From Bacteroidales bacterium (GTDB taxonomy: Bacteria > Bacteroidota > Bacteroidia > Bacteroidales > GCA-2748055): 64,000 bases of DNA. Shown here piece by piece: positions 7,914-58,358 of this stretch. The position numbers and the translations under genes are program-made. A model generated the notes under the pieces. It was not told the origin of the DNA and did not search any database. It was given only the letters and a program-made list of their open reading frames with translations. The stretch is taken from assembly GCA_023138875.1 (NCBI GenBank), contig JAGLOO010000009.1, forward strand, positions 62,001 to 126,000. The letters are read 5' to 3'. How positions within the stretch are numbered: the stretch's first letter is position 1; each line of letters opens with the position of its first letter.

Positions 7914-7919
7914 AGGGAG

Positions 7920-7927
7920 CAAAGGTA
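7920..7927 (-). promoter_or_regulatory. Candidate -7 box directly before miaB
   Basis: The minus strand reads TACCTTTG, then CTCCCT, then the GTG start at 7913. It matches TAnnTTTG exactly and implies a zero- to two-base leader. If this promoter is real, the upstream ATG at 7982 cannot be the start of this transcript. Confidence 0.4.
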
Positions 7928-8080
7928 GGAAACGAACATGAACTTTTTTAATCAAAACTTCATAACACATGAAAAAGACCATTGACCGACAATAAAGCCC
8001 AGCTCGCCGATTTACTATTTTCCAGGTCGATGCAGGGTCTTAATATTGCATCATAGACAATAGTTAAAAATTTAAAACGA

Positions 8081-8614
8081 ATGAAAATGGGAGCTGGTTT
8101 ATTTTGGGGTGCATTTTTACTCCTGCTGGGTATTGCACTCATCATCAAAGTGGTTTTTAATGTGGATTTTCCCGTGTTCAAGGTACTTGTGGGAATATTT
8201 CTAATCTTGCTGGGTATTAAAGTTTTATTCGGAAGGTTTTTGATTCCTTCCCATCATTTTGAGCATGAGGAAACCATCTTTAATGAACGGGTCTATGACA
8301 ATCCTGAATCGGGCAAGGAATACACGGTGCTGTTTGCCAAAGGAGTATATGATTTCACCAATGTAGACCTGAGTAAGGGCAGTTTTCACGTCAAGATTAG
8401 CACAGTTTTCGGCGGGACACAAATCATCATTCCAAGGGACATGCCTGTGAGGATCAAAGCAGATGCGGTGTTTGCGGGAGCCGAATTGCCGGATGGGAAT
8501 ACGGCAGTTTTCGGATCTGTCATCTATGAAAGCGATTCCTGGTCGCCCGATACAGCTGCAATTGATATCAAAGTGGATGTGGTATTCGGGGGAGTTCAGG
8601 TGATCAGACGCTAA
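8081..8614 (+). CDS. LiaF/LiaI-like membrane protein
   Basis: The 177-residue protein has two N-terminal transmembrane helices (about 5-25 and 30-52) rich in Leu, Gly and Ile, of the kind found in LiaI/LiaF (cell-wall-active antibiotics response) proteins. A soluble beta-rich domain follows. Three copies of a similar strand unit can be seen: TVFGGTQIIIPRDMPV, AVFAGAELPDGN and VVFGGVQVIRR. This is the pattern of the LiaF C-terminal or toast-rack fold. Such proteins are involved in envelope-stress sensing in Firmicutes and are of unclear role in Bacteroidota. No histidine kinase lies next to it. TAATATTG at 8041-8048, one base from the -7 consensus, may be its promoter. The gene is divergent from miaB. 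Confidence 0.8.
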   Translation: MKMGAGLFWGAFLLLLGIALIIKVVFNVDFPVFKVLVGIFLILLGIKVLFGRFLIPSHHFEHEETIFNERVYDNPESGKEYTVLFAKGVYDFTNVDLSKGSFHVKISTVFGGTQIIIPRDMPVRIKADAVFAGAELPDGNTAVFGSVIYESDSWSPDTAAIDIKVDVVFGGVQVIRR

Positions 8615-44374: not shown

Positions 44375-45508
44375 ATGAAAATTTTAGTTGCTCCCGATTC
44401 ATTCAAGGATTGCCTGAGCGCTCGCCAGGTGGCCGTTGCACTCAGTAAGGGAATGAAGAAGATCTCCCCGGAAACAATTTTCGACATCGCTCCCATGGCC
44501 GACGGAGGAGAAGGAACCGTTGAGTCGGTTGTAGATGCAACACAGGGAAAACTGGTTCAGATTCCTGTTATGGATCCTTTGATGCGGGAAACATCTTCCT
44601 TTTACGGGATTACCGGTGATGGGACCACCGCAGTGATAGAAATGGCAGCTGCCTCCGGGATTGAGTTACTGGTTACATCTGAAAGGAATCCCTGGGTGAC
44701 TTCAACATTTGGAACCGGTCAGCTGATTCGTCATGCGCTGGATCGGGGTTGCAAAAAGATCCTGCTGGGAATTGGGGGTAGTGCTACCAATGATGGAGGA
44801 GCCGGAATGGCAGTTGCGTTGGGGGTGAAGTTTACGAACCATGCAGGAGCCTCCATCGGGCCGGGAGGGGGTGCATTGATTGATGTGGCCGGGGTTCATA
44901 TGGATGGGTTGGATCCCAGGATAGCCAACGCTGAAATACTGGTAGCCTGCGATGTTTCCAATCCGCTTACCGGCCCCAATGGAGCTTCATTTGTTTATGG
45001 ACCTCAGAAAGGAGCTGATCAGGAAATGGTGGAGAAACTGGACAAAAACCTGAACCATTTTGCTGGTGTAATCCAGCAGCAACTGGGAAAAGAGATTTCC
45101 CATCTACCTGGAGCAGGAGCAGCAGGAGGACTGGGTGCCGGCTTGATGGCTTTTCTGGGAGCCAGATTGATGAAAGGATTTGATATGATCGCAGAGACGG
45201 TTGGTCTGGAGGAGAAGATAAAGCGGGCTGACCTGGTGATTACCGGTGAAGGTAAAATTGATGGACAGACCCGGTTTGGGAAAACCCCTTTCGGAGTAGC
45301 CCAGTTGGCCCAAAAGCATGGGAAACCTGTAGTTGGAGTGGCGGGAACTGTTGAGGCGGGGGCCGATTTGTTGTATAGGGAGGGATTTCATCTGATCATG
45401 CCCATCATGGAAATGCCTTCGGATCTGGCTTACGCCATCACGCATGCAGAGCAACTGCTGGAACGAACCGGGGAAAGGATTGCAAGAATGCTTAACCTGG
45501 AAATTTAA
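44375..45508 (+). CDS. Glycerate kinase (GarK/GlxK type)
   Basis: The 377-residue enzyme is of the class I glycerate kinase family. It begins KILVAPDSFKDCLSARQVA and holds IAPMADGGEGTVESV, ILLGIGGSATNDGGAGMAVALG, GPNGASFVYGPQKGAD and LVITGEGKIDGQTRFGKTP, all diagnostic. It phosphorylates glycerate, usually to 2-phosphoglycerate, feeding glycolysis. It stands divergent from the lactate permease, and its stop overlaps the convergent cyclophilin-fold gene by four bases. Confidence 0.94.
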   Translation: MKILVAPDSFKDCLSARQVAVALSKGMKKISPETIFDIAPMADGGEGTVESVVDATQGKLVQIPVMDPLMRETSSFYGITGDGTTAVIEMAAASGIELLVTSERNPWVTSTFGTGQLIRHALDRGCKKILLGIGGSATNDGGAGMAVALGVKFTNHAGASIGPGGGALIDVAGVHMDGLDPRIANAEILVACDVSNPLTGPNGASFVYGPQKGADQEMVEKLDKNLNHFAGVIQQQLGKEISHLPGAGAAGGLGAGLMAFLGARLMKGFDMIAETVGLEEKIKRADLVITGEGKIDGQTRFGKTPFGVAQLAQKHGKPVVGVAGTVEAGADLLYREGFHLIMPIMEMPSDLAYAITHAEQLLERTGERIARMLNLEI

Positions 45509-45879
45509 CCGGCTTTTTCTACAGTAACATTTTCTCCGTCGGGGACCCTTCGAAGGTTTTTCAGGTCAACTTCTGAAAGCTTCCCGATCACATTTACCGG
45601 ACTTGCAGCTTCAGGGGTATCCCCGGTGCTGGCGGGTGTGGGACCAAATATGATACAGAAAGCGGGCATGTTGGGCCAGTATGCCAGGTCACCTACAGAC
45701 ATGGCCGACTTTGCATCAGCTTCAAGGGTGGTTTTGACGGGAATCTCAAAATAGATTTCATCTCCCCATGTATTCACATTCCGCTGCAGGGGCAGTGCAT
45801 TGTAAATAGCCTGACCTGTAGGTGTATCATACAATTCTGCCTCCACCTGGTAGGTTGCAAATCTGATAATTATCTTCAT
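45505..45879 (-). CDS. Cyclophilin-like fold protein
   Basis: The 124-residue single-domain protein resembles the small cyclophilin-like (TM1367-type) family: IRFATYQVEAELYDTPTG, NTWGDEIYFEIPV, GDLAYWPNMPAFCIIFGPTP and NVIGKLSEVDLKNL. The catalytic Arg/His set of true cyclophilins is not evident, so isomerase activity is doubtful. The family is widespread and uncharacterised. It has no signal peptide. It is convergent with the glycerate kinase gene and divergent from the aspartokinase gene, so it is probably transcribed alone. Confidence 0.78.
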   Translation of the reverse strand: MKIIIRFATYQVEAELYDTPTGQAIYNALPLQRNVNTWGDEIYFEIPVKTTLEADAKSAMSVGDLAYWPNMPAFCIIFGPTPASTGDTPEAASPVNVIGKLSEVDLKNLRRVPDGENVTVEKAG

Positions 45880-45946
45880 GGTGTTTTATATAATCATCGC
45901 TATTGCTATTTTTGATCTACAATTTACGAATTAAAACGGTTTCAGG

Positions 45947-47212
45947 ATGTTTGTATTCAAATTCGGGGGAGCATCGGTAAAAAGTGCTGAAGCAATCAGG
46001 AACATTGTGGCCATTCTCCAGCGCTATCAGGAAGATAAAATTGTGGTGGTGGTGTCTGCCATGGGAAAGACCACCAATACCCTGGAGCGGATCATAGAGT
46101 GCTATACAGGTAAAAAAGAGGAGGGCTTAAAAAAAGAATACAAACAGTTAAAGGCTTACCACCTTGATATTGTGAATGGACTTTTCGAAGATAAAAACCA
46201 TCCTGTATTCGTTGATGTTAATGACCTGTTTGACGACCTTGCGGATAGGCTTACCAAGGATCCCACACTGAATTATGATTTTGATTATGACCAGTTGATC
46301 TGTTATGGGGAATTGCTTTCCACCACAATCATCAGTCATTTCCTGAACCAGTCGGGAGTGGACACCATGTGGATGGATATTCGGCGGTCGCTCAAATCTG
46401 ATAACAATTGGCGTGAGGCCAGGGTGGACTGGGAACTGTCAACCCGCCTGGTCAACGAAAATTTCATTTTCAATGGTGAACGGATCCTGATCACCCAGGG
46501 TTTTCTGGCATCCACCATCAACGACCAGACCACCTCCCTGGGACGGGAAGGATCGGATTATACGGCTGCCATACTGGCCTATATGATGAAGGCTAAAAGT
46601 GTGACCATATGGAAAGATGTGCCGGGGGTATTGAATGCGGACCCCAAGTATTTTGATGATACACTGCTGCTGGAGCGGCTTTCTTTTCTGGATGCCATCG
46701 AACTGGCCTATTTCGGAACCAGTGTGATCCACCCCAAAACCATTAAACCACTCCAGAACAGGAACATCAATCTTCATGTGAAGTCTTTTATAGATCCTGA
46801 TGCACCGGGAACACTTATTGGAAACATCTCCTACGATAAACTGATCCCTTCTTTTATTTTTAATATGGACCAGGTACTGATCCGTACATCGCCACACGAT
46901 TTCTCTTTCATCAATGAGGACAACCTTGAGGAGATATTCGGGATCCTGAACAAGCACGGAATGAAGATCAACCTGATGCAGAATTCAGCCATCAGTTTCC
47001 TCTTGATCGTGAACAATGACAAACGAACGCTGAGGCTTGTGGTGGATGAACTGGAGGAAAAATATAAAGTAGCCCACCAGACCGGACTGGAGCTGATCAC
47101 CATCAGATATTTTGACACATCGACCATCGATCGGGTCATGATCAACAAGGAGCTGATTATGGAACAGCGTGGTGTTCAGAACATCCAACTGCTGGTCAGG
47201 GACTTGGGATAA
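45947..47212 (+). CDS. lysC: Aspartate kinase (monofunctional)
   Basis: The 421-residue enzyme catalyses the first step of the Lys/Thr/Met/DAP pathway. The amino-acid-kinase domain starts VFKFGGASVKSAEAI and contains VVVSAMGKTTNTLERI, TQGFLASTINDQTTSLGREG and VPGVLNADPKYF. C-terminal ACT-type regulatory sequence follows (FINEDNLEEIFGILNKHG, AISFLLIVNNDK). No homoserine dehydrogenase part is fused. It would feed diaminopimelate needed by MurE in this window. The gene is apparently single; 85 bases separate it from the secreted hydrolase-like gene. Confidence 0.94.
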   Translation: MFVFKFGGASVKSAEAIRNIVAILQRYQEDKIVVVVSAMGKTTNTLERIIECYTGKKEEGLKKEYKQLKAYHLDIVNGLFEDKNHPVFVDVNDLFDDLADRLTKDPTLNYDFDYDQLICYGELLSTTIISHFLNQSGVDTMWMDIRRSLKSDNNWREARVDWELSTRLVNENFIFNGERILITQGFLASTINDQTTSLGREGSDYTAAILAYMMKAKSVTIWKDVPGVLNADPKYFDDTLLLERLSFLDAIELAYFGTSVIHPKTIKPLQNRNINLHVKSFIDPDAPGTLIGNISYDKLIPSFIFNMDQVLIRTSPHDFSFINEDNLEEIFGILNKHGMKINLMQNSAISFLLIVNNDKRTLRLVVDELEEKYKVAHQTGLELITIRYFDTSTIDRVMINKELIMEQRGVQNIQLLVRDLG

Positions 47213-47250: not shown

Positions 47251-47258
47251 TACATTTG
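47251..47258 (+). promoter_or_regulatory. Candidate -7 box for the five-gene polysaccharide operon
   Basis: TACATTTG matches TAnnTTTG, 39 bases before the first ATG (47298). No clear -33 TTG lies at the usual spacing. No other full -7 match was noticed before the glycosyltransferase gene. Confidence 0.45.
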
Positions 47259-47297
47259 GATTAAACTACCTTTTCCTCTCAGGAATGGTTATTTAAT

Positions 47298-49934
47298 ATG
47301 GAAATGAGGTACACCTTTACACTCCTGTTTTGCCTGATTATTATCATTGTTCCAAATGAAAGCCTGACTCAGGATCATATCAAATCGAATTCGAAGGATC
47401 AATTCAAAGGGATCTATACCATCAGGGATGATGGTTTTACTATCTGGAACGGAAGGGAATATATACCGATATTGATCAAGGGTATCAACATGGGGGTTTC
47501 GGTCCCCGGAACACAACCGGGACAACTCGCTGCCACCAGGGAGGATTACAGGCGCTGGTTTGACCTGATAAAAGAAGCCGGATACAATACCATCCGGCTC
47601 TATACCCTTCATTATCCCAGATTTTATGAGGAATTGAAACAATATAACCTGGATCATCCGGGAAATCCCTTGCTTGTGATCCAGGGAATCTGGCTTGAGG
47701 AGCAGGAGACGGCCAGAGACTTATTTGAGCTGACCCCGGTTTTCAGTAATGAGATCAGGGAGGTGGTAAGTGCCGTTCATGGGGATATCACCATCGACCA
47801 GCGGTTCGGAAAGGCTGATGGGATCTTTTCTGCCGATATATCTTCATGGGTGGCAGGTTTTCTTATAGGCCGGGAGATATTCCCTGAAGAGGTCTCCCTG
47901 ACAAACCAGAATCATCCCGGAGAAAATGTATACCAGGGCGCCTATTTTCAGCTTTCAGGCGGCGGAGACCCTGTTGAAGTATGGATCACCCAGCGGCTCG
48001 ACAGTTTGATGATCTATGAGATGGAACAATACAGGACTGTTCGTCCTGCCGGTTTTTCCAACTGGCCTACCCTTGATCCTCTGTTCCATCCAACAGAGCA
48101 GCTCGTGGATGGCAGCCAGGAGGATATTGAAAAGATTGACCTGGCCAATGTGGTATCCACAGATTCTTCCGGTGGATTCTTCATTGGCTTTCATGCATAT
48201 CCTTATTACCCCGATTTTATAATCCAGGATCCCTACTACAGTGTCGAGACCGATTCACTGGGGCCCAATGGATACCTGGGCTATTTAAAGGACCTGAAAC
48301 AGCACTATGATGGAATTCCTCTTGTGGTTGCTGAGTTTGGAGTGCCTTCCAGCTGGGGAAGCGGCCATCACTCCCCTACAGGGATGCACCATGGGGGTCT
48401 TACGGAAGAGCAACAGGGAAGGTATATCATCAGGATGCTTGACAATATTGTTGAGGCAGGCTGTGCCGGCGGTATACAGTTCTCCCTGATTGATGAATGG
48501 TTCAAGCAGACCTGGATCACCAATCCATACTCCAGTAAAGAATACCGGCATCTCTGGCATAACATCACCTCACCGGAACAGAATTTCGGAATTCTCTCCT
48601 ACGCTTCACCTCCTGAACCTTATACCGGGTCGGGCTCGTTTCCGGATAAATCCATTTCACAGATTAAAATTTCCTCTGACTATACTTTCTTCAGGACACG
48701 GATCTACATGGATGTGGAGAATCACCAGGGTGATACCCTCTGGGTGGCCTTTGACACCTATGAGAAGGATCTTGGAGAATCGGTCCTCCCGAACGGGATT
48801 TCTCTGGGCGGTGGAACGGACACCCTGAGGGCAGAGTTTGTGCTTTGCATACCATTGGATGGAGAGAGGGCCGATCTATACGTGATCCCGTCCTATGATG
48901 TCTACGGAATCAAAAACCGGGTCAGGGTTGATACGGTCATTTCCACGAGAAGTGACCTGGGTGACTGGAACCGGGTCAGGTGGAAAACCAATTATCATTA
49001 TAACATTACACAATACATCGGGGAACTCCGGATCTCCGAACGGAATGATCCTTACCAGTTTCTCAATGCTGTAACCCTCTTTAAAGACAGCCTGGAGGTC
49101 AGGATCCCATGGACCCTGATCAATTTCCCGGCTCCTACCGTGCGCAGGGCCATGCACTATGTGTCCCGTAAAGAGGGAAGCGATATTGTCATTGAGCAGG
49201 AGGATACCCTGTCTGAAGGAATAGCCGTTACTGCAGTGATGAATAATGAATTGTATCAGTCAGAGAGGTATTCCTGGAGCTTCTGGGACTATGAGAAAAT
49301 AGTGATGGACCCGCCCATTGAACGAAAAAAGCAATCTTATCATTATCTGAAACAGCAGTTGCCGCTGTTTAATTCTCCGCCCATAGGCTTGGCGGATACG
49401 TTTGAAGTAGAACCTGGCAATTCTCTGGATATAGGAGGGAAGGAGGGACTGCTGGCCAATGATTTTGATATCGACGGAAATGAATTATCTGCATCCCTTT
49501 CATTTGGGAACGGCACAACAAATGGAAATTTGCATCTTCACCCCAACGGCAGCTTTAATTACATTCCGGATCAGGATTTTATCGGGAATGATTTTTTCAT
49601 GTATTACCTTCACGACGGATATACATATTCAACACTGGTCCCGGTTTACCTGCAGGTCGGTTTTTCATTGAACCTGGAAGAGAACCACCAGAATTCCTAC
49701 AATCGTTTTTTCATTTTCCCAAATCCGGGGAAGGAGCTGTTCTATATCAGGACCACGGAATCTTTTGGGAGTGCATCGGTGCATGTAGTGGATATGATGG
49801 GCAGAGACATTGCATTTGAAACACTGGAAGATAGTGATTCCTGGATCAGGCTTGAAGACCTCGAACCGGGAGTGTTCATATTCAATATACAATTTGATAA
49901 CAATTTAGAGCTGCATCGTATAATAATTCAATAG
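47298..49934 (+). CDS. T9SS-exported glycoside-hydrolase-like protein
   Basis: The 878-residue protein has a signal peptide (TFTLLFCLIIIIVPNESLT). A TIM-barrel hydrolase-like domain covers about residues 40-430: YIPILIKGINMGVSVPG, AGYNTIRLYTLHYPRFYEEL and VVAEFGVPSSWG, with E346 in the position of a GH5/GH2-clan nucleophile. E193 (GREIFP) is a possible acid/base. A beta-rich region follows. A cadherin/VCBS-like domain at about 700-785 holds LLANDFDIDGNELSA. A type IX sorting domain ends the protein (FFIFPNPGKELFYIRT to LHRIIIQ). It should be released or attached at the cell surface. It heads the operon with the synthase genes, suggesting it trims or modifies the polymer. The exact GH family is uncertain. 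Confidence 0.8.
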   Translation: MEMRYTFTLLFCLIIIIVPNESLTQDHIKSNSKDQFKGIYTIRDDGFTIWNGREYIPILIKGINMGVSVPGTQPGQLAATREDYRRWFDLIKEAGYNTIRLYTLHYPRFYEELKQYNLDHPGNPLLVIQGIWLEEQETARDLFELTPVFSNEIREVVSAVHGDITIDQRFGKADGIFSADISSWVAGFLIGREIFPEEVSLTNQNHPGENVYQGAYFQLSGGGDPVEVWITQRLDSLMIYEMEQYRTVRPAGFSNWPTLDPLFHPTEQLVDGSQEDIEKIDLANVVSTDSSGGFFIGFHAYPYYPDFIIQDPYYSVETDSLGPNGYLGYLKDLKQHYDGIPLVVAEFGVPSSWGSGHHSPTGMHHGGLTEEQQGRYIIRMLDNIVEAGCAGGIQFSLIDEWFKQTWITNPYSSKEYRHLWHNITSPEQNFGILSYASPPEPYTGSGSFPDKSISQIKISSDYTFFRTRIYMDVENHQGDTLWVAFDTYEKDLGESVLPNGISLGGGTDTLRAEFVLCIPLDGERADLYVIPSYDVYGIKNRVRVDTVISTRSDLGDWNRVRWKTNYHYNITQYIGELRISERNDPYQFLNAVTLFKDSLEVRIPWTLINFPAPTVRRAMHYVSRKEGSDIVIEQEDTLSEGIAVTAVMNNELYQSERYSWSFWDYEKIVMDPPIERKKQSYHYLKQQLPLFNSPPIGLADTFEVEPGNSLDIGGKEGLLANDFDIDGNELSASLSFGNGTTNGNLHLHPNGSFNYIPDQDFIGNDFFMYYLHDGYTYSTLVPVYLQVGFSLNLEENHQNSYNRFFIFPNPGKELFYIRTTESFGSASVHVVDMMGRDIAFETLEDSDSWIRLEDLEPGVFIFNIQFDNNLELHRIIIQ

Positions 49935-49960
49935 CTTTACGGAAAAGTGCTCCGGAACCG

Positions 49961-50323
49961 ATGAGAATACTTGTGTGTGAAGATAATCCAATAGCCCTTA
50001 AAACCATCGAGTTTACGCTTAAGAAGGCGGGCTACGAAGTGCTGAAAGCTGAGGATGGCGAGCAGGGGATTGGTATTTTGGATGAACAGGAAGTCGACCT
50101 GGTGATCACTGACATTAATATGCCGTATACCAAAGGGCTTGAGCTGGTTCGGTATATCAATACAAAGCTGGAAACAAAGATCCCAACGATCATCATTTCC
50201 GGCATTAACCTGGATGAGACAATAGATCATGCCAAGGAGCTTGGAGCAGAGGGATACCTAACCAAACCGTTTGATCCGAAAGCATTGCTTGATCTTATAC
50301 AATCCCTTTTCGAAGAAAATTAG
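49961..50323 (+). CDS. Stand-alone response-regulator receiver domain
   Basis: The 120-residue protein is a complete CheY-like receiver: acidic pair E7/D8, phosphoacceptor D51 (VITDINMP), switch residue S80 (IIISGINL) and K102 (YLTKPFD). There is no output domain. It lies 26 bases after the hydrolase gene and seven bases before the YaiO-like gene, so it is part of the operon. Single receivers in such loci usually act by protein contact, for example on a synthase or scaffold. No histidine kinase gene is nearby. Confidence 0.92.
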   Translation: MRILVCEDNPIALKTIEFTLKKAGYEVLKAEDGEQGIGILDEQEVDLVITDINMPYTKGLELVRYINTKLETKIPTIIISGINLDETIDHAKELGAEGYLTKPFDPKALLDLIQSLFEEN

Positions 50324-50330
50324 CCATTAT

Positions 50331-51506
50331 ATGCGAATTGTAACAGCACTGATCATCCTTTCGGTTTTTTTCTCGTATCAATTATCAGCTCAGGAATTGC
50401 AAAAAACATATGATACTCCTGAAGACGGATTTGCCTTGATGAGGCAGCATGCGGCGGCTAACCAGTATGCTGATGCGAAAAATATCGGGTACCGTTTGCT
50501 GGTGGAAAATCCAGATTATTATGATGTTTCCCTTTATCTGGCCAGAATATTTGGATGGGAAGCAGCATATGATTCGGCCCATTCAATTCTGGAGCAAGTT
50601 TTATTGAAGGATCCATCTCATTTCGAAGCCCATGAAGTCCGTGTTGATCTGGCCTACTGGGAGAACGACTGGATCAAACTTGAAGAATATGCTGGTGCAG
50701 CACTAGCATTGAATCCTGATTCACCTGAGATAAAAAGGAAATATTTGTTGGCGAAATCTCAACTGGGATCAACCCAGGATATAACAGAGATCCTGGTATC
50801 CTATTCTTACGACCACTTCCGGAAGCCTTATCTCAGAAACTGGCATATGCTTTCTGCAGGCGCCATCATTCCTTATAAGTTAGGTTCCTTATCACCTTAT
50901 CTAAACGGGGGCTATCATCCAGGAGTTGAGGGCACGTCCACAGACATTCAGTTGAATCTGGATACCTATTTTCATCTGGGTAAAATGAATTATGCAATGG
51001 CCGGGTATGGCATCTCACCGGGCGGAACGATCAATTATTTACCGGATCACAGGGCTGCCCTGGAGGTGTGGCAAGTGCTGCCGTCCGGATTTGCCATATC
51101 TGCCGGAATGCGCTATTTCTACTGGGATCAGCACTTTACTTTCCTGACATTCTCAGGAGAAAAATACACGGGTAATTTTTGGTTTTCTTTGAGAAATTAC
51201 CTGTTTTTCAAAGAGTATGGCATTTCGGGATCCTATTACCTTAGCGCCAGGAGATACTTTGCTGACAGATTTAATTATCTCAATATTACACTGGGATATG
51301 GCACGGCTCCTGATGAACCATTGGTGGTTGTTTCAGATCTTGAAAGATTGAATGCACTCTCTTTCAGAGCGGAGTTTTCCAGACAGGTCAGGTATAATTT
51401 ACGGCTGAATGTAATGGCGGGATATGCCTATGAGGAATTTGACGATCAGCAATTCCGCAACCGGTTTGATATGAGGATAGGATTATATATCAGGTTAATG
51501 CAGTGA
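50331..51506 (+). CDS. YaiO-family outer-membrane beta-barrel protein with TPR-like N-terminus
   Basis: The 391-residue protein has a signal peptide (MRIVTALIILSVFFSYQLSAQ). Helical TPR-like repeats span about residues 25-140 (DAKNIGYRLLVENPDYYDVS, SAHSILEQVLLKDPSHFEAH). A barrel-type C-terminal half follows (HMLSAGAIIPYKLGSLSPYL, FWFSLRNYLFFKEYGISGSY), ending in the aromatic strand NRFDMRIGLYIRLMQ. This is the YaiO architecture. The frame runs 20 codons upstream, but that part precedes the signal peptide and overlaps the receiver gene. By analogy with BcsC, AlgK/AlgE and PgaA, a TPR-plus-barrel protein would export polymer across the outer membrane. The stop overlaps the next start (GTGA). 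Confidence 0.85.
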   Translation: MRIVTALIILSVFFSYQLSAQELQKTYDTPEDGFALMRQHAAANQYADAKNIGYRLLVENPDYYDVSLYLARIFGWEAAYDSAHSILEQVLLKDPSHFEAHEVRVDLAYWENDWIKLEEYAGAALALNPDSPEIKRKYLLAKSQLGSTQDITEILVSYSYDHFRKPYLRNWHMLSAGAIIPYKLGSLSPYLNGGYHPGVEGTSTDIQLNLDTYFHLGKMNYAMAGYGISPGGTINYLPDHRAALEVWQVLPSGFAISAGMRYFYWDQHFTFLTFSGEKYTGNFWFSLRNYLFFKEYGISGSYYLSARRYFADRFNYLNITLGYGTAPDEPLVVVSDLERLNALSFRAEFSRQVRYNLRLNVMAGYAYEEFDDQQFRNRFDMRIGLYIRLMQ

Positions 51507-52798
51507 CAGCACGGGTTAAATACATAGTCCTGTTTCTTTTGTGGGCCCTCATTCCAATCAGTTTTTACACTGTATTTGCCCGGGATGCCAGCGCTCCAAC
51601 CGGACAGGATTCAACCGAATTGGTCGGGATTCCGGCTCCTCAGATATTGCAGGATACAGCAGTAACACAGCAGGCCCAACCTAACAGTTTTCTGAGCCGA
51701 TACAGAGGGCGGATCCTTGTCAGATTTGACAAATCCCCCCTGTTTATTTCCATTCTTTATGTGGTGATCATCTATTCGATTATAACACTGATCACGTTGT
51801 TGATTATAATTCTGTTAAACAGGGGCAGGATGCAGCGAGAGGAGAAGCTGTTGGAATATCTGAATAATGAGTATCAGCAGAAATTAATGGATTATCTATT
51901 TGAAGAGGAAAAACGAGACCGGGCCCTTAAGGATTTAGAAAGGGTTGCTTCCAACAGATTCAACCGTCAGATCCTGATCAATCAGATGATCGATCTGAGC
52001 ATTAACCTGAAGGGTGAGCTCAGGCTCTTGATTAAAGAGCTCTATCTGTTGTTGGGTTTAAAAAAAGACTCCCTTGCAAAAGCCTACAGTAAGAAATGGC
52101 ATGAGAATGTGAAAGGATTCAGGGAACTGGCCTTCATGAATATCCGGGAAGCGAAAGAGAGGATCCTGGACAGCCTTAATTCCAGCAATGAGATCGTAAG
52201 AATGGAAGCCCAGATCGCCATGGTCAGATTATCAGATGATAATCCCTACCATTTCCTGCATTTCATGGATAAACCACTGGCAGTCTGGGAACAGATAACT
52301 CTTCATGAACTGCTCATCCAGCATAACCTAAAAGTCCCGGCATTCAAGCAATGGTTTGAATCAAAGAACCTGAGTATAGTAATTTTTGCGCTGGAGATGG
52401 TTTCCTGGTTCAAGCAGAAAAGTGCGGGTAAGGAGATCATAAAACTTCTTGAACATGAGAGTGATGTGGTCAGGCACACGGCTATCAAGGTATTCGGAGA
52501 TATTCAATATAAAAGTTCATTGCCTGTCCTTAAAAAGATTTATGAGGGTGAGCCCTACAAGAACAAATTGGAAATTTTGCTCACATTTGCCAGAATCCCG
52601 GATGAGAGGTACCTGAATTTCCTGAAATCTGTGCTGGATATGGAGGAGGATGTCCAGCTCCAGATCCAGGCCACAAAAGCGATGGAGAATACAGATGAAC
52701 CCGGTATATCGATGCTTATCAAACTAATGAAATCAAAATCTGAGTATAAAAACTATCAGATCATCATCAGGCATGTGCTTGACGGCAGGATCTACTAA
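51503..52798 (+). CDS. Membrane-anchored HEAT-repeat protein
   Basis: The 431-residue protein starts with GTG overlapping the previous stop. It has an N-terminal hydrophobic segment (YIVLFLLWALIPISFYTVF), about 60 periplasmic residues, a second helix (SILYVVIIYSIITLITLLIIILL), then a charged coiled coil (REEKLLEYLNNEYQQKLMDY) and a cytoplasmic alpha-solenoid of HEAT-type repeats (SSNEIVRMEAQIAMVRLSDD, ESDVVRHTAIKVFGDIQY, EDVQLQIQATKAMENTDEPG). It has no catalytic motif. Between the exporter and the synthase gene, it is best read as a scaffold coupling the inner-membrane synthase to the periplasm or to the receiver. I know no characterised homologue. Confidence 0.8.
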   Translation: MTARVKYIVLFLLWALIPISFYTVFARDASAPTGQDSTELVGIPAPQILQDTAVTQQAQPNSFLSRYRGRILVRFDKSPLFISILYVVIIYSIITLITLLIIILLNRGRMQREEKLLEYLNNEYQQKLMDYLFEEEKRDRALKDLERVASNRFNRQILINQMIDLSINLKGELRLLIKELYLLLGLKKDSLAKAYSKKWHENVKGFRELAFMNIREAKERILDSLNSSNEIVRMEAQIAMVRLSDDNPYHFLHFMDKPLAVWEQITLHELLIQHNLKVPAFKQWFESKNLSIVIFALEMVSWFKQKSAGKEIIKLLEHESDVVRHTAIKVFGDIQYKSSLPVLKKIYEGEPYKNKLEILLTFARIPDERYLNFLKSVLDMEEDVQLQIQATKAMENTDEPGISMLIKLMKSKSEYKNYQIIIRHVLDGRIY

Positions 52799-52800
52799 TT

Positions 52801-54222
52801 ATGAATAGCTTGTTTGAAATATTAAAGTTTTTTTTGTTACATGCGGTTTTTATAATTACTGCATTGATTTTCAGTACATATCTGCTGCTCACTGTTTTCT
52901 CCGCAATTTCCTTGCGCAAGTACCTGAGAAAGAATAGCTATGTAAATTATAACTCCATCGTCTCCTCTCCGCTGGCTCCTACACTTTCAGTCATAGCTCC
53001 GGCCTTTAACGAAACCCGTACCATCATCGACAATATTCGCACCCTGTTGTCGCTCTATTATAATAATTATGAAGTGATTGTAGTCAATGATGGCAGTTCA
53101 GACGATTCCATGGAAAAGATGATCCAAACCTATGAACTGGAAAAGGTTAACTACTATTTCGATTATCGCTTGCCATGTAAAAGGATACGGGGAGTATATA
53201 AGTCCCGGAACAGGTCTTTCAAAAAGCTTACTGTGATTGATAAGGTGAACGGGGGTAAGGCCGATTCTTTAAATGCCGGACTGAATGTTTCCAAGAATGA
53301 CCTGGTGGTAAGTATTGATGCTGACTCTATAATGGAGCCCGATGCCCTCCTTAAGCTGGTAAAACCATTTATGGAGGCCAAGGAAAAGAGAGTGATAGGT
53401 GCCGGTGGGGTGATCAGGATAGCCAACTCATGTGAGATCTCTGGTGGTCATATTAATAAAATACATCTTCCCAAGAAATTCCTTCCAAGAGCCCAGGTGA
53501 TGGAATATACCAGGGCTTTCCTGATGGGCAGGATGGCATGGAGTGAGTTGGATGGTTTACTTCTTATATCGGGTGCACTTGGGATGTTTGACCGGGAAAT
53601 CGTCATTCAGTCAGGGGGCTATCGGACAGACACTGTTGGGGAGGATATGGAACTGGTGGTGCGGATAAGACGATATATGGCCGACAATAATGAGACCTAT
53701 GATGTAGTCTATATCCCCGATCCTCTTTGCTGGACAGAGGTGCCATCTACTTTAAAAATGCTGGCCAGGCAACGGAGCAGGTGGACCCGCGGAACCCTTG
53801 AAACGCTGATCACTCATCGAAAATTGTTTTTCAACAGGAAATATGGAAAACTCGGAATGCTTGGTTACCCCTATTGGCTGATGTTTGAATACCTTGCACC
53901 CATTATTGAGTTCCTGGGGATACTCTGGTTTATATTTCTGGTGATCACAGGTAATTTGAACTGGCCATTTTTTCTTTTGCTATTAGGATTTGTCTACTTT
54001 TTTGCTGTTTCTTTATCCATATGGAGTGTCCTGTTTGAAGAGGTAACATTTCATAAATATGAAAAACGAAGGGATGTGTTAAAACTGATCGGAACAGCAT
54101 TCATGGAACCGGTCTTCTATCATCCACTGGTCATGTTGATGTCAATCAAAGGCAACATTGATAAAATCCTGAAGCGGAATACCTGGGGCAAGATGGAAAG
54201 AAAAGGATTTAATAAAACCTGA
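52801..54222 (+). CDS. Processive family-2 glycosyltransferase (polysaccharide synthase)
   Basis: The 473-residue inner-membrane enzyme starts with one helix (about 10-37). The GT2 domain contains LSVIAPAFNETRTIIDNI, VIVVNDGSSDDSMEKM, the DxD motif D173-A-D175 (SIDADS), E281-D282 (VGEDMELVVRIRRYM) and Q324-R-S-R-W328. The QxxRW motif marks processive synthases such as those for cellulose, PNAG and hyaluronan. Three or four C-terminal helices follow (IIEFLGILWFIFLVITG onward). There is no PilZ domain, so cyclic-di-GMP control as in BcsA is not evident. It starts two bases after the HEAT gene. The polymer is unknown; a PgaC-like N-acetylglucosamine polymer is one option. Confidence 0.92.
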   Translation: MNSLFEILKFFLLHAVFIITALIFSTYLLLTVFSAISLRKYLRKNSYVNYNSIVSSPLAPTLSVIAPAFNETRTIIDNIRTLLSLYYNNYEVIVVNDGSSDDSMEKMIQTYELEKVNYYFDYRLPCKRIRGVYKSRNRSFKKLTVIDKVNGGKADSLNAGLNVSKNDLVVSIDADSIMEPDALLKLVKPFMEAKEKRVIGAGGVIRIANSCEISGGHINKIHLPKKFLPRAQVMEYTRAFLMGRMAWSELDGLLLISGALGMFDREIVIQSGGYRTDTVGEDMELVVRIRRYMADNNETYDVVYIPDPLCWTEVPSTLKMLARQRSRWTRGTLETLITHRKLFFNRKYGKLGMLGYPYWLMFEYLAPIIEFLGILWFIFLVITGNLNWPFFLLLLGFVYFFAVSLSIWSVLFEEVTFHKYEKRRDVLKLIGTAFMEPVFYHPLVMLMSIKGNIDKILKRNTWGKMERKGFNKT

Positions 54223-55904: not shown

Positions 55905-58358
55905 ATGTGGAAGAATTTTTTAAGGGTCACGATCCGGAGTATAAACAGGAACAAAGCATTCAATGTGATCAATATATCCGGTCTGGCCATTGGTCTGGCC
56001 AGTTCCATTTTCATCATCCTCTATATCATCAGTGAAACAAGTTACGACCGTTTCCATGAGCGGTCTGCTGATATTTACAGGCTATACCTTGACGGTAAAA
56101 CGGCAGGTGAAGAGTTTAAAGGTGCCTGGAACAGTCCCATATTCGGACCCACATTTAATGAAGAGATCCCTGAAATAGAGAATTTCTGCAGGTTCGATTT
56201 TGCCAACAACCGGCTCATGTGGGCAGATCAGGAAAATAAGTTCCTGGAGGGCCATATCATGTATGCCGATTCGACCTTTTTCGAGGTATTTACCATCAAC
56301 CTTCTCCAGGGCGATCCAGCTACCTGCCTGGATGAACCCAATACCTTATTGTTATCGGAAACCAAAGCCAATCAGTACTTCCCGGATGGCGATCCCATGG
56401 GTAAGTCCATTGCCATGAACAACGACTCCACCCTGTACCGGGTTACCGGTATAGTGGAAGATGCTCCGAGGACGTCACATTTTTACTATGATTTCATCTG
56501 TTCCTATTCCACCTATGAGTCGAGCCGGAGAACTAACTGGTTCAACAATCATATGCAGACATATATATTGGTGCAACCCGGTGCGGATCAGGCAGCCCTG
56601 GATACAAAGATTAATGCATCTTTGCTGGAGAATATACGTCCCCAACTGGAACAATTTATGGGGATCTCACCCGAAGAATTTGCTGAAGCCGGCGGAAAGT
56701 ATGGGGTCTTTACCCAGGCCCTGCTGAATATCCATCTTGATACAGAAATTGAGGTGCCCAGTGATATCGGGTTCCGCCCCATCGGGAACCGTACTTACCT
56801 GATAATTTTTGGGATTATTGCATTCTTTGTCCTGGTCATTGCCTCCATCAACTTCATGAATCTCAGCACGGCCAGGTCATTGAGCCGGGCCAAGGAAGTG
56901 AGTCTGCGAAAAGTTGTGGGATCAGGAAAAAAACAACTGGTCCAACAATTCCTGTTCGAGAGTGTCTTTCTCAGCCTGATATCCCTTGTGATCGCCCTCC
57001 TGCTTGTGGTTATCTTACTGAATCCCTTCAACAATCTGGTGGGACTGAACCTGGAATATGGGGATATATTCCGTTGGTACATGATCCCGTCATTCATTAT
57101 CCTGGCCATACTTGTGGGATTACTGAGTGGCAGTTATCCTTCCTTTGTGCTGGCCTCCTTCAAACCCATCTTTGCCCTGAAAGGGAACGGCAACCAGAAG
57201 AACGGGACCAACTGGATGAGGAATGTCCTGGTGATCATCCAGTTCTCTATTTCGATCGTCATCATCGCAGGGACCCTGGTCATCTACTGGCAGTTCCGGT
57301 ATATGACCAACAAGGACCTGGGATTCGACAAGGAGCAGCTGGTAGTGATGGAAAGGATACACCCGCTGGGACAGCAAATTCAAACTTTCAAAGATGAACT
57401 TACCAACCATACATCGATCCTTTCAGCCTCCAATTCCACGGCATACCTGGGAGCTCCCAATAACAACAATGCATATGGGATCAAGGGAAGACCGCTGGAG
57501 GAAATCGTACTTTTCTTTACTTTCTGGACTGATGAAGATTTTATGGATACTTATAAGTTTGGATTGGCTACTCCGGATAGCAGGTATTTCTCAGAAGACT
57601 TCGCCACAGACTCGGCAACCTGCCTGATAAATGAAGCTGCTGTTCGTAAATACAACTTGGAGGATCCCCTTAATCAATCAATCATGCATAGTGTGGGGGA
57701 CAATGAATTAAGGGAATTAAGGATTATTGGTGTGATGAGTGATCACCATTTCCTTACCCTGAAACATGAGGTAGGTGCGCAGATTGCTATTCTTAAAGAA
57801 GAATCATGGAACTGGTCTGGATACCTGACTGTCCGCCTGGCTCCAGGCAAGGAGAATATTGAAGCAGGCCTGAAGCATATGGATGACAAATGGAAAGAAT
57901 TTACCGACGATCAGCCCCTGCAGTACTTTTTCCTTGATGAGGAGCTGGAAACCTATTATGCAGAGGAAAAGCGGACCGGTGCTGTGACCATGATTTTTTC
58001 TATACTGGCTATCTTTATTGCATCACTGGGACTTTTTGGTCTTACGCTATACAATGCACAGAAGCGGATACGGGAGATCGGTCTGCGGAAGGTACTGGGC
58101 GCCACCGAGACAAACATTATCACTGTGGTATCAAAAAGTGTGATCTTTGCGGTAGGGATTTCTATTGCCATTGCCATGCCTGTAGCCTACTACATGATGC
58201 AGGACTGGTTGAGGGATTTTCCGTATAATGTGGGATTCCAGCCTCTGCTCTTTATTGCTTCAGCGCTGCTGGCCATTATCATAGCCATGGTAACAGTAAC
58301 CATTACCTCATTGAAAGCTGCCCGTATCAATCCTGCTGCTGCACTGCATTGCGAGTAG
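55905..58358 (+). CDS. MacB/FtsX-type ABC transporter permease
   Basis: The 817-residue protein holds two copies of the MacB_PCD plus FtsX layout. The first starts MWKNFLRVTIRSINRNKAFN with a helix NVINISGLAIGLASSIFIIL, a periplasmic domain, and helices preceded by AKEVSLRKVVGSGKKQLVQQ. The second has a core helix after NWMRNVLVIIQFSISIVIIAG, another periplasmic domain, and the C-terminal FtsX helices after KRIREIGLRKVLGATE. This single-chain pattern is abundant in Bacteroidota. No ATPase gene adjoins it, so it must pair with one elsewhere. The 204-base upstream gap shows no full promoter match or other feature. Confidence 0.9.
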   Translation: MWKNFLRVTIRSINRNKAFNVINISGLAIGLASSIFIILYIISETSYDRFHERSADIYRLYLDGKTAGEEFKGAWNSPIFGPTFNEEIPEIENFCRFDFANNRLMWADQENKFLEGHIMYADSTFFEVFTINLLQGDPATCLDEPNTLLLSETKANQYFPDGDPMGKSIAMNNDSTLYRVTGIVEDAPRTSHFYYDFICSYSTYESSRRTNWFNNHMQTYILVQPGADQAALDTKINASLLENIRPQLEQFMGISPEEFAEAGGKYGVFTQALLNIHLDTEIEVPSDIGFRPIGNRTYLIIFGIIAFFVLVIASINFMNLSTARSLSRAKEVSLRKVVGSGKKQLVQQFLFESVFLSLISLVIALLLVVILLNPFNNLVGLNLEYGDIFRWYMIPSFIILAILVGLLSGSYPSFVLASFKPIFALKGNGNQKNGTNWMRNVLVIIQFSISIVIIAGTLVIYWQFRYMTNKDLGFDKEQLVVMERIHPLGQQIQTFKDELTNHTSILSASNSTAYLGAPNNNNAYGIKGRPLEEIVLFFTFWTDEDFMDTYKFGLATPDSRYFSEDFATDSATCLINEAAVRKYNLEDPLNQSIMHSVGDNELRELRIIGVMSDHHFLTLKHEVGAQIAILKEESWNWSGYLTVRLAPGKENIEAGLKHMDDKWKEFTDDQPLQYFFLDEELETYYAEEKRTGAVTMIFSILAIFIASLGLFGLTLYNAQKRIREIGLRKVLGATETNIITVVSKSVIFAVGISIAIAMPVAYYMMQDWLRDFPYNVGFQPLLFIASALLAIIIAMVTVTITSLKAARINPAAALHCE

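Follow-up and report, generated by a model that had tools for sequence, protein, structure and literature searches.

In the stretch of DNA analysed here, 64,000 nucleotides of a Bacteroidales bacterium (assembly GCA_023138875.1, contig JAGLOO010000009.1, positions 62,001 to 126,000; hereafter the window), we found a compact operon containing four genes that recur together in other genomes, namely those for a lone receiver, a YaiO-type outer-membrane barrel with tetratricopeptide repeats (TPRs), an inner-membrane protein with HEAT repeats and a processive-type glycosyltransferase of family GT2, the HEAT and GT2 genes being the tightest pair of this unit. With a probability of about 0.6, the unit encodes a synthase-dependent polysaccharide secretion system under local phospho-control, in which the receiver would act on the synthase via the HEAT protein. 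Gene content and order, recurrence, motifs, predicted folds and the absence of GGDEF and PilZ matches are established. The initial annotation of this DNA had proposed a synthase-dependent polymer secretion system with assembly and control parts of its own, a view now supported by recurrence and motifs, the function being what we infer from them.

The association between the HEAT and GT2 genes emerged from a search seeded with the HEAT protein, the open reading frames (ORFs) of the relatives being called mechanically. This search matched 12 of the 119 genomes of the same order, the genome of the window included; a GT2 gene of the same kind adjoins the HEAT gene in ten of these, one match lies at a contig end (L010/L021) and one is without neighbouring GT2 (L013/L024). 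GT2 adjoins HEAT also in all ten further loci retrieved from GTDB contigs titled as Bacteroidota metagenome-assembled genomes. Among 395 Bacteroidota genomes, YaiO (PF19413) is present in 93, at 97 places, all of which are covered by the 95 regions analysed together with the window. A GT2 of this family (above 350 bits) is found in 81 of the 95 regions, or in 82 by hand count on the six-frame list, and the HEAT gene lies directly 5' of GT2 on the same strand in 78 of them, with a median gap of −4 bases (58 of the 78 gaps fall between −8 and +12). Where the region has a YaiO ORF, the 471 ORFs lying less than 4.5 kb from it include 66 GT2, 56 HEAT and 60 receiver-containing ones, and the 618 ORFs at 4.5–9 kb include 14, 23 and 35, respectively. 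A six-frame scan of the loci returned 112 GT2 genes, 110 of which have a same-strand HEAT gene within 0.7 kb on their 5' side; the remaining two are in L054, where HEAT lies just beyond the distance limit, and in L111, which has none. A receiver domain occurs within about 2.2 kb upstream of HEAT for 76 of the 112 GT2 genes (33 are without it and one has GGDEF only) and within 6.5 kb of 91 of the 112 (hand count on the same list), counts that may include unrelated receivers.

The gene-neighbourhood search proposed with the initial annotation thus returns YaiO, HEAT and GT2, with the receiver, together across Bacteroidota, and the objection that these genes might not recur as a group fails. Because the four-gene association recurs in other genomes, the arrangement seen in the window is more than chance. 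The claim of a five-gene unit, on the other hand, stands for the receiver, YaiO, HEAT and GT2 genes but not for the hydrolase-like gene that opens the operon, which is present in nine of the 395 genomes.

To verify the association reciprocally, a profile of 36 HEAT proteins (A1; E 1e-12), some rows of which derive from genomes of the same order or class that were under test, was run against the same 395 genomes and matched 63 of them. YaiO and HEAT are both present in 56 genomes, YaiO alone in 37, HEAT alone in seven and neither in 295 (Fisher p 5e-35, uncorrected for kinship). In the order and class of the window, the YaiO-positive and the HEAT-positive genomes are the identical set of 44, beside 20 genomes listed with neither, the class total among the 395 not being part of the listings. 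In a tree of GT2 proteins (111 rows, sequences cut to 560 residues, YaiO positions labelled by hand and 22 of the 111 rows unlabelled) the place of YaiO, whether upstream, downstream or on the opposite strand, requires at least eight changes by parsimony; strongly supported branches alone give four changes for two of the three position groups. Since YaiO stays near through repeated rearrangement, it appears functionally tied to the unit. On the same tree nearby GGDEF needs three changes and the fusion of GT2 with a sulfatase domain at least three. Taken together, HEAT and GT2 almost certainly form one functional unit, YaiO very probably belongs to it and the receiver is a likely member.

Several observations weigh against such a coherent system. 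The 21 GT2 genes without a receiver in 6.5 kb include about five cut by contig ends and about 16 uncut (hand count), and 13 of the 95 YaiO regions lack GT2 even by six-frame scan. Contig ends cut four of these 13 (L063, L118, L121 and L127) and four others have HEAT-GT2 elsewhere in the genome: in G413, G215, G346 and G493 the HEAT gene is on another contig (L131, L132, L133 and L135), flanked closely by a receiver on its upstream side and GT2 on its downstream side, and G493 has a further HEAT match without GT2 (L134). YaiO stands without partner in five regions (L067, L073, L079, L109 and L117), the genome of L117 having a second YaiO with HEAT and GT2 (L122). Conversely, second HEAT-GT2 copies (L136–L140) show no YaiO match in the 17–18 kb around them; four of them (L136, L137, L139 and L140) have a receiver just upstream of HEAT, and the receiver of L138 is on the opposite strand. 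(Of note, a histidine kinase is found upstream of the second copy in three of these five loci.) Beyond the class of the window 12 of 49 YaiO genomes pass the HEAT cut-off, and seven genomes pass it without having YaiO. Moreover, HEAT solenoids are generic as a fold, any contact of the HEAT protein with the receiver or GT2 is putative, and the genome of the window has other export routes, since it yields three Wza-type (Poly_export) matches.

The GT2 synthase (52801..54222, + strand, 473 aa) matches Glyco_tranf_2_3 of Pfam with 78 bits and has hydrophobic segments at both its N-terminal and C-terminal ends. The DxD, ED and QxxRW motifs noted at first sight were located as DAD (173–175), GED (280–282) and QRSRW (324–328), preceded by NDGS (96–99); residues D97, D173, D175, D282, Q324, R325 and W328 are invariant in all 102 GT2 sequences aligned. 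The protein resembles hyaluronan and cellulose synthases, and its profile aligns with hyaluronan synthase across positions 17–417. These motifs and the near-full-length similarity to hyaluronan synthases lead us to infer that it polymerises and translocates a glycan. The best-scoring NCBIfam equivalog is PgaC/IcaA (132.1 bits, cut-off 422.3), and the CelA/BcsA equivalog TIGR03030 is not reached (43 bits, cut-off 699.1). No MshEN-type domain is matched in either GT2 or the HEAT protein (Pfam, E 0.01), nor is PilZ matched by Pfam in any of the five operon proteins, as had been noted before.

The barrel protein (50331..51506, + strand) is a member of the YaiO family according to both PF19413 (113 bits, cut-off 23.9) and TIGR04390 (92 bits, cut-off 32), and its N-terminal part matches TPR_19 (32.3 bits, cut-off 25), which bears out its earlier description as repeats joined to a barrel. 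Its length of 391 aa is counted from an ATG; the ORF call itself opens at an upstream TTG (50271). We found no functional paper on the YaiO family among the titles and abstract beginnings of the matches listed, which concerned PCR detection and unrelated topics. The operon gives this family partners and a likely role, namely that of the proposed exporter.

The HEAT protein (51503..52798, + strand, 431 aa, GTG start) matches HEAT_2 of Pfam with 42.8 bits (cut-off 27.7). Its predicted structure (mean pLDDT 88.7) consists of an N-terminal helix (2–25), a low-confidence segment (25–58), a long helix that starts in the membrane (79–133) and a helical solenoid (135–426); the segment 25–58 would be periplasmic and the solenoid cytoplasmic. 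In its homologues, counted here by taking clusters cl3, cl4 and cl9 together, the HEAT_2 cut-off was exceeded by all four members of one Pfam scan (L107, L057, L046 and L119) and by seven of the eight members of another, L058 falling under it. The N-terminal part of the L016 protein contains a SPOR domain over cut-off, and sub-cut-off matches are found to SPOR in L087 and to LysM in L084, in line with an anchored HEAT protein.

The receiver (49961..50323, + strand, 120 aa) matches Response_reg of Pfam with 97 bits and has no output domain; together with the HEAT_2 match this upholds the earlier report of a HEAT-repeat membrane protein and a lone receiver in the operon. Among receivers located within 8 kb of GT2 genes, the phospho-acceptor D51 is kept in 71 of 74 and K102 in 72 of 74. 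In 28 of 100 loci a histidine kinase similar to the hybrid one of L043 is encoded no more than 8 kb away, a count obtained with a kinase-core query, the hybrid nature being established for L043 alone (PAS, GAF, HisKA, HATPase, two receivers and Hpt). Hpt-like proteins just under the Pfam cut-off adjoin the receiver in L018 and are fused to a receiver in L016. The genome of the window has two Hpt matches; one of them, on another contig (C2), is by our reading of the sequence a lone Hpt gene (7916-8248) with a STAS-like gene following it (together L148:7558-8248), and this Hpt protein is a possible phosphodonor for the receiver.

Biofilm polysaccharides of the synthase-dependent kind are, in textbook accounts, switched by cyclic di-GMP (c-di-GMP). 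The genome of the window, 99.6% complete, yields no match to either GGDEF or PilZ in genome searches that were positive in eight and five, respectively, of 14 control genomes. Overall, GGDEF is present in 203 of the 395 Bacteroidota genomes (192 without match) and in 28 of the 93 genomes with YaiO (65 without match), the 65 including all 44 that belong to the order and class of the window. In 14 of the 28 GGDEF-bearing YaiO genomes a GGDEF-type ORF lies inside the YaiO region, genomes and loci having been matched by hand. Four such loci, belonging to a single genus, have in the place of the receiver, just upstream of HEAT-GT2-YaiO, a REC-GGDEF-REC protein with degenerate GGDEF motif (L106:4807-6432, L107:4667-6454, L108:4833-6395 and L114:4795-6435; Pfam domains determined for L114 only); the genomes concerned have one GGDEF match apiece, which is probably this very protein. 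In L110 and L113 a PAS/GAF-GGDEF-EAL protein is followed by receiver, HEAT, GT2 and YaiO. The slot upstream of HEAT would therefore be a control input, served by a phosphorelay in most Bacteroidia.

In the mechanism that we propose, GT2 would polymerise a nucleotide sugar and thread the chain through its own membrane helices, beside which the HEAT protein, anchored in the inner membrane, would work as co-polymerase and as transducer via its cytoplasmic solenoid. A histidine kinase or an Hpt protein would phosphorylate the lone receiver, which would dock on the solenoid and thereby switch the synthase, whereas YaiO, with its periplasmic TPRs and outer-membrane barrel, would carry the polymer out. 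A type IX secretion system (T9SS)-exported hydrolase may trim or remodel the surface polymer in some lineages, and a phosphoglycerol-transferase-like enzyme probably decorates it in others. That the system makes and exports a polymer we regard as likely; gating of the synthase by the receiver via the HEAT protein is slightly better than an even bet.

The strongest competing explanation, which we consider unlikely, gives the HEAT protein no role beyond that of assembly scaffold or co-polymerase, comparable to PgaD beside PgaC, with the receiver acting elsewhere, for example in a wider phosphorelay, and the synthase controlled by expression or substrate. It would account for the linkage of HEAT to GT2 being tighter (110 of 112) than that of the receiver (76 of 112), for the approximately 16 uncut loci without receiver in range and for the two N-terminal hydrophobic helices of the HEAT protein in the window, which resemble the two-helix plan of PgaD. 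It accounts less well for the usual position of the receiver upstream of HEAT (the same 76 of 112), for the REC-GGDEF proteins that occupy this place in four genomes of one genus and for a receiver that has no DNA-binding output domain.

Sensing of a nucleotide messenger, be it c-di-GMP or another, by an unrecognised site on the HEAT protein or GT2, with the receiver secondary, is improbable. The GGDEF-type proteins within the YaiO region in half of the GGDEF-bearing YaiO genomes would fit such sensing, but GGDEF is unmatched both in the genome of the window and in the 44 genomes with YaiO from its order and class, the genome of the window has no PilZ match and the GGDEF domains of L106–L108 and L114 are degenerate. 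Least probable, by a little, is that GT2 makes a glycolipid or a short envelope-attached glycan and that YaiO is a modifying or sensing barrel of the outer membrane, which would suit the lack of a YaiO function in the literature seen, in titles and abstract beginnings, and the LTA-synthase-like partners in 35 of 100 loci, but conflicts with QxxRW and the similarity to hyaluronan and cellulose synthases, with PgaC/IcaA as nearest NCBIfam equivalog (132 bits, cut-off 422) and with the combination of TPRs and outer-membrane pore, the exporter pattern of synthase-dependent systems in what we saw of PMC7112194.

Returning to the receiver-controlled synthase, a broader form of this reading has about even odds: an unnamed, phylum-wide system whose GT2 is switched, via a dedicated HEAT-solenoid protein, by a lone receiver in its phosphorylated state and whose control slot is swappable, the variants of this slot being a lone receiver without c-di-GMP enzymes, REC plus degenerate GGDEF in one genus and a GGDEF-EAL sensor plus receiver elsewhere. 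The findings point to a control slot that can be exchanged while the synthase-HEAT core stays constant. The operon provides a testable answer to how Bacteroidota devoid of GGDEF could gate a processive synthase post-translationally, and a phosphorelay-gated synthase with a HEAT transducer would be new as a mechanism.

The hydrolase-like gene that precedes the receiver gene (47298..49934, + strand, 878 aa) encodes a surface or secreted protein with a hydrophobic N-terminus, a (beta/alpha)8 barrel, a beta domain, a Big_9 immunoglobulin (Ig) domain and a T9SS type A tail (Por_Secre_tail, 30.9 bits, cut-off 27). Its catalytic part has no Pfam or NCBIfam family match; GH113 is weakly matched in two of ten aligned members (best E 0.027). 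The predicted fold is a barrel of the clan GH-A type, in which E193 and E346 (E173 and E326 in the modelled piece), invariant in all ten aligned proteins, terminate strands beta4 and beta7 by our reading of the model, as in clan GH-A. The top structural match, the GH157 endo-beta-1,3-glucanase of Labilibaculum (9g4n), is within one Z unit of GH2 and GH5 enzymes, so our assignment stops at the clan GH-A type fold. The gene is linked to the system in four of the nine genomes that have it and is a lineage-specific accessory. Hence the T9SS hydrolase of the initial annotation holds with regard to its tail and its predicted fold, but not as part of the recurring unit.

The five ORFs are co-directional and separated by 26, 7, −4 and 2 bases in gene order, in exact agreement with the packing first described. 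All five are found in the same order in the complete regions of close relatives L014, L025, L028, L030 and L032, and the complete regions of L027, L033 and L034, likewise close relatives, are without the hydrolase gene. The single −7 box described earlier is present as TACATTTG (TAnnTTTG; 47251..47258, + strand; by inspection and comparison with relatives), no −33 element being seen by eye at the usual spacing. A box of this type lies within 150 bases 5' of the hydrolase gene in two of the five relatives with the hydrolase (L014 and L028) and is absent from that stretch in L025, L030 and L032; since the box is kept in these two only, it is a weak candidate for the promoter. Glycerate kinase-like and aspartate kinase-like genes lie 5' of the operon (44375-47212), a position kept in L014, L025, L027, L028 and L030. 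On the 3' side there is an ABC-transporter-like permease gene recognised by eye (55905-58358; its product begins MWKNFLRVT), which is present in tandem copies in L027 and L028.

Other enzymes are encoded near the system in its relatives. In 35 of 100 loci a membrane enzyme of the Sulfatase family is encoded within 8 kb; in 11 it is fused to GT2, and here ORFs of 1134–1270 aa carry a C-terminal domain resembling LTA synthases and phosphoglycerol transferases (L035, L038–L040, L042–L044, L051, L055, L056 and L128); such a fusion is also found in L138. As the nearest NCBIfam model of one scanned enzyme is phosphoglycerol transferase I (45 bits, cut-off 572), decoration of the polymer with phosphoglycerol or a similar group is suggested for the loci with the Sulfatase family, the window excepted. 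DUF4838 proteins near GT2 in 12 of 100 loci (e.g. L061:12951-15185) are possibly an alternative polymer-acting enzyme. A family of approximately 390 aa with hydrophobic N-terminus, found in 12 of 100 loci (e.g. L041:12224-13375, L019:5113-6318 and L135:2007-3155), was matched by neither Pfam nor NCBIfam in those members that were scanned.

Synthase-dependent systems are defined, in the part of PMC7112194 that we saw, by a synthase, a c-di-GMP regulatory domain or co-polymerase, periplasmic modifying enzymes and a TPR protein with outer-membrane pore, as exemplified by the Bcs (cellulose), acetylated cellulose, Pga (PNAG), alginate and Pel systems. The operon of the window shares with these its compactness, an inner-membrane GT2 with processive motifs, a TPR region joined to an outer-membrane barrel, and candidates for the partner membrane protein and for a polymer-acting enzyme. 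It differs in having receiver and HEAT instead of a c-di-GMP-binding domain, PilZ being absent from operon and genome and GGDEF from the genome by our searches, and in a putative modifying enzyme, GH-A like, that carries a T9SS tail and is not periplasmic. None of the named Bcs, Pga and Alg partners is in the operon, as had been stated previously.

The closest curated relatives of the synthase are PgaC and IcaA, next to which a membrane partner (PgaD or IcaD) is likewise encoded, but GT2 is far under their cut-off and has a HEAT solenoid in place of PgaD beside it; Pga/Ica identity is thus ruled out, and so is Bcs identity by the TIGR03030 score and the absence of PilZ. The NfrB-NfrA-YbcH system of E. 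coli, the N4 glycan receptor system (PMC8669469), also combines a GT2 having processive motifs with a TPR/barrel protein; the part of that paper available to us describes an MshEN c-di-GMP-binding domain on GT2, which has no match in GT2 or HEAT here and excludes identity with Nfr, and no HEAT protein or receiver. The E. coli yaiO-yaiX-yaiP-yaiS cluster, to which the initial annotation had likened the operon, has the gene order given in its name and a YaiO-family barrel close to a GT2 gene, but the parallel is a loose one: E. coli YaiO, of 257 aa, has BLAST similarity to YaiO of the window no better than chance, YaiP aligns with GT2 over its N-terminal GT part only (29% identity), and a putative deacetylase and acyltransferase are found where the window has HEAT and receiver, neither of which is encoded among the 17 annotated features in 10.5 kb of the yaiO region. 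(In E. coli K-12, L130, yaiX is annotated as interrupted by IS2.) In the literature we found no named or published YaiO-HEAT-GT2 system, in keeping with the earlier suggestion of an undescribed one. The system works like the synthase-dependent systems, yet it is none of the named ones; if its proposed control is true, it would be the phosphorelay-gated counterpart of c-di-GMP-gated synthases.

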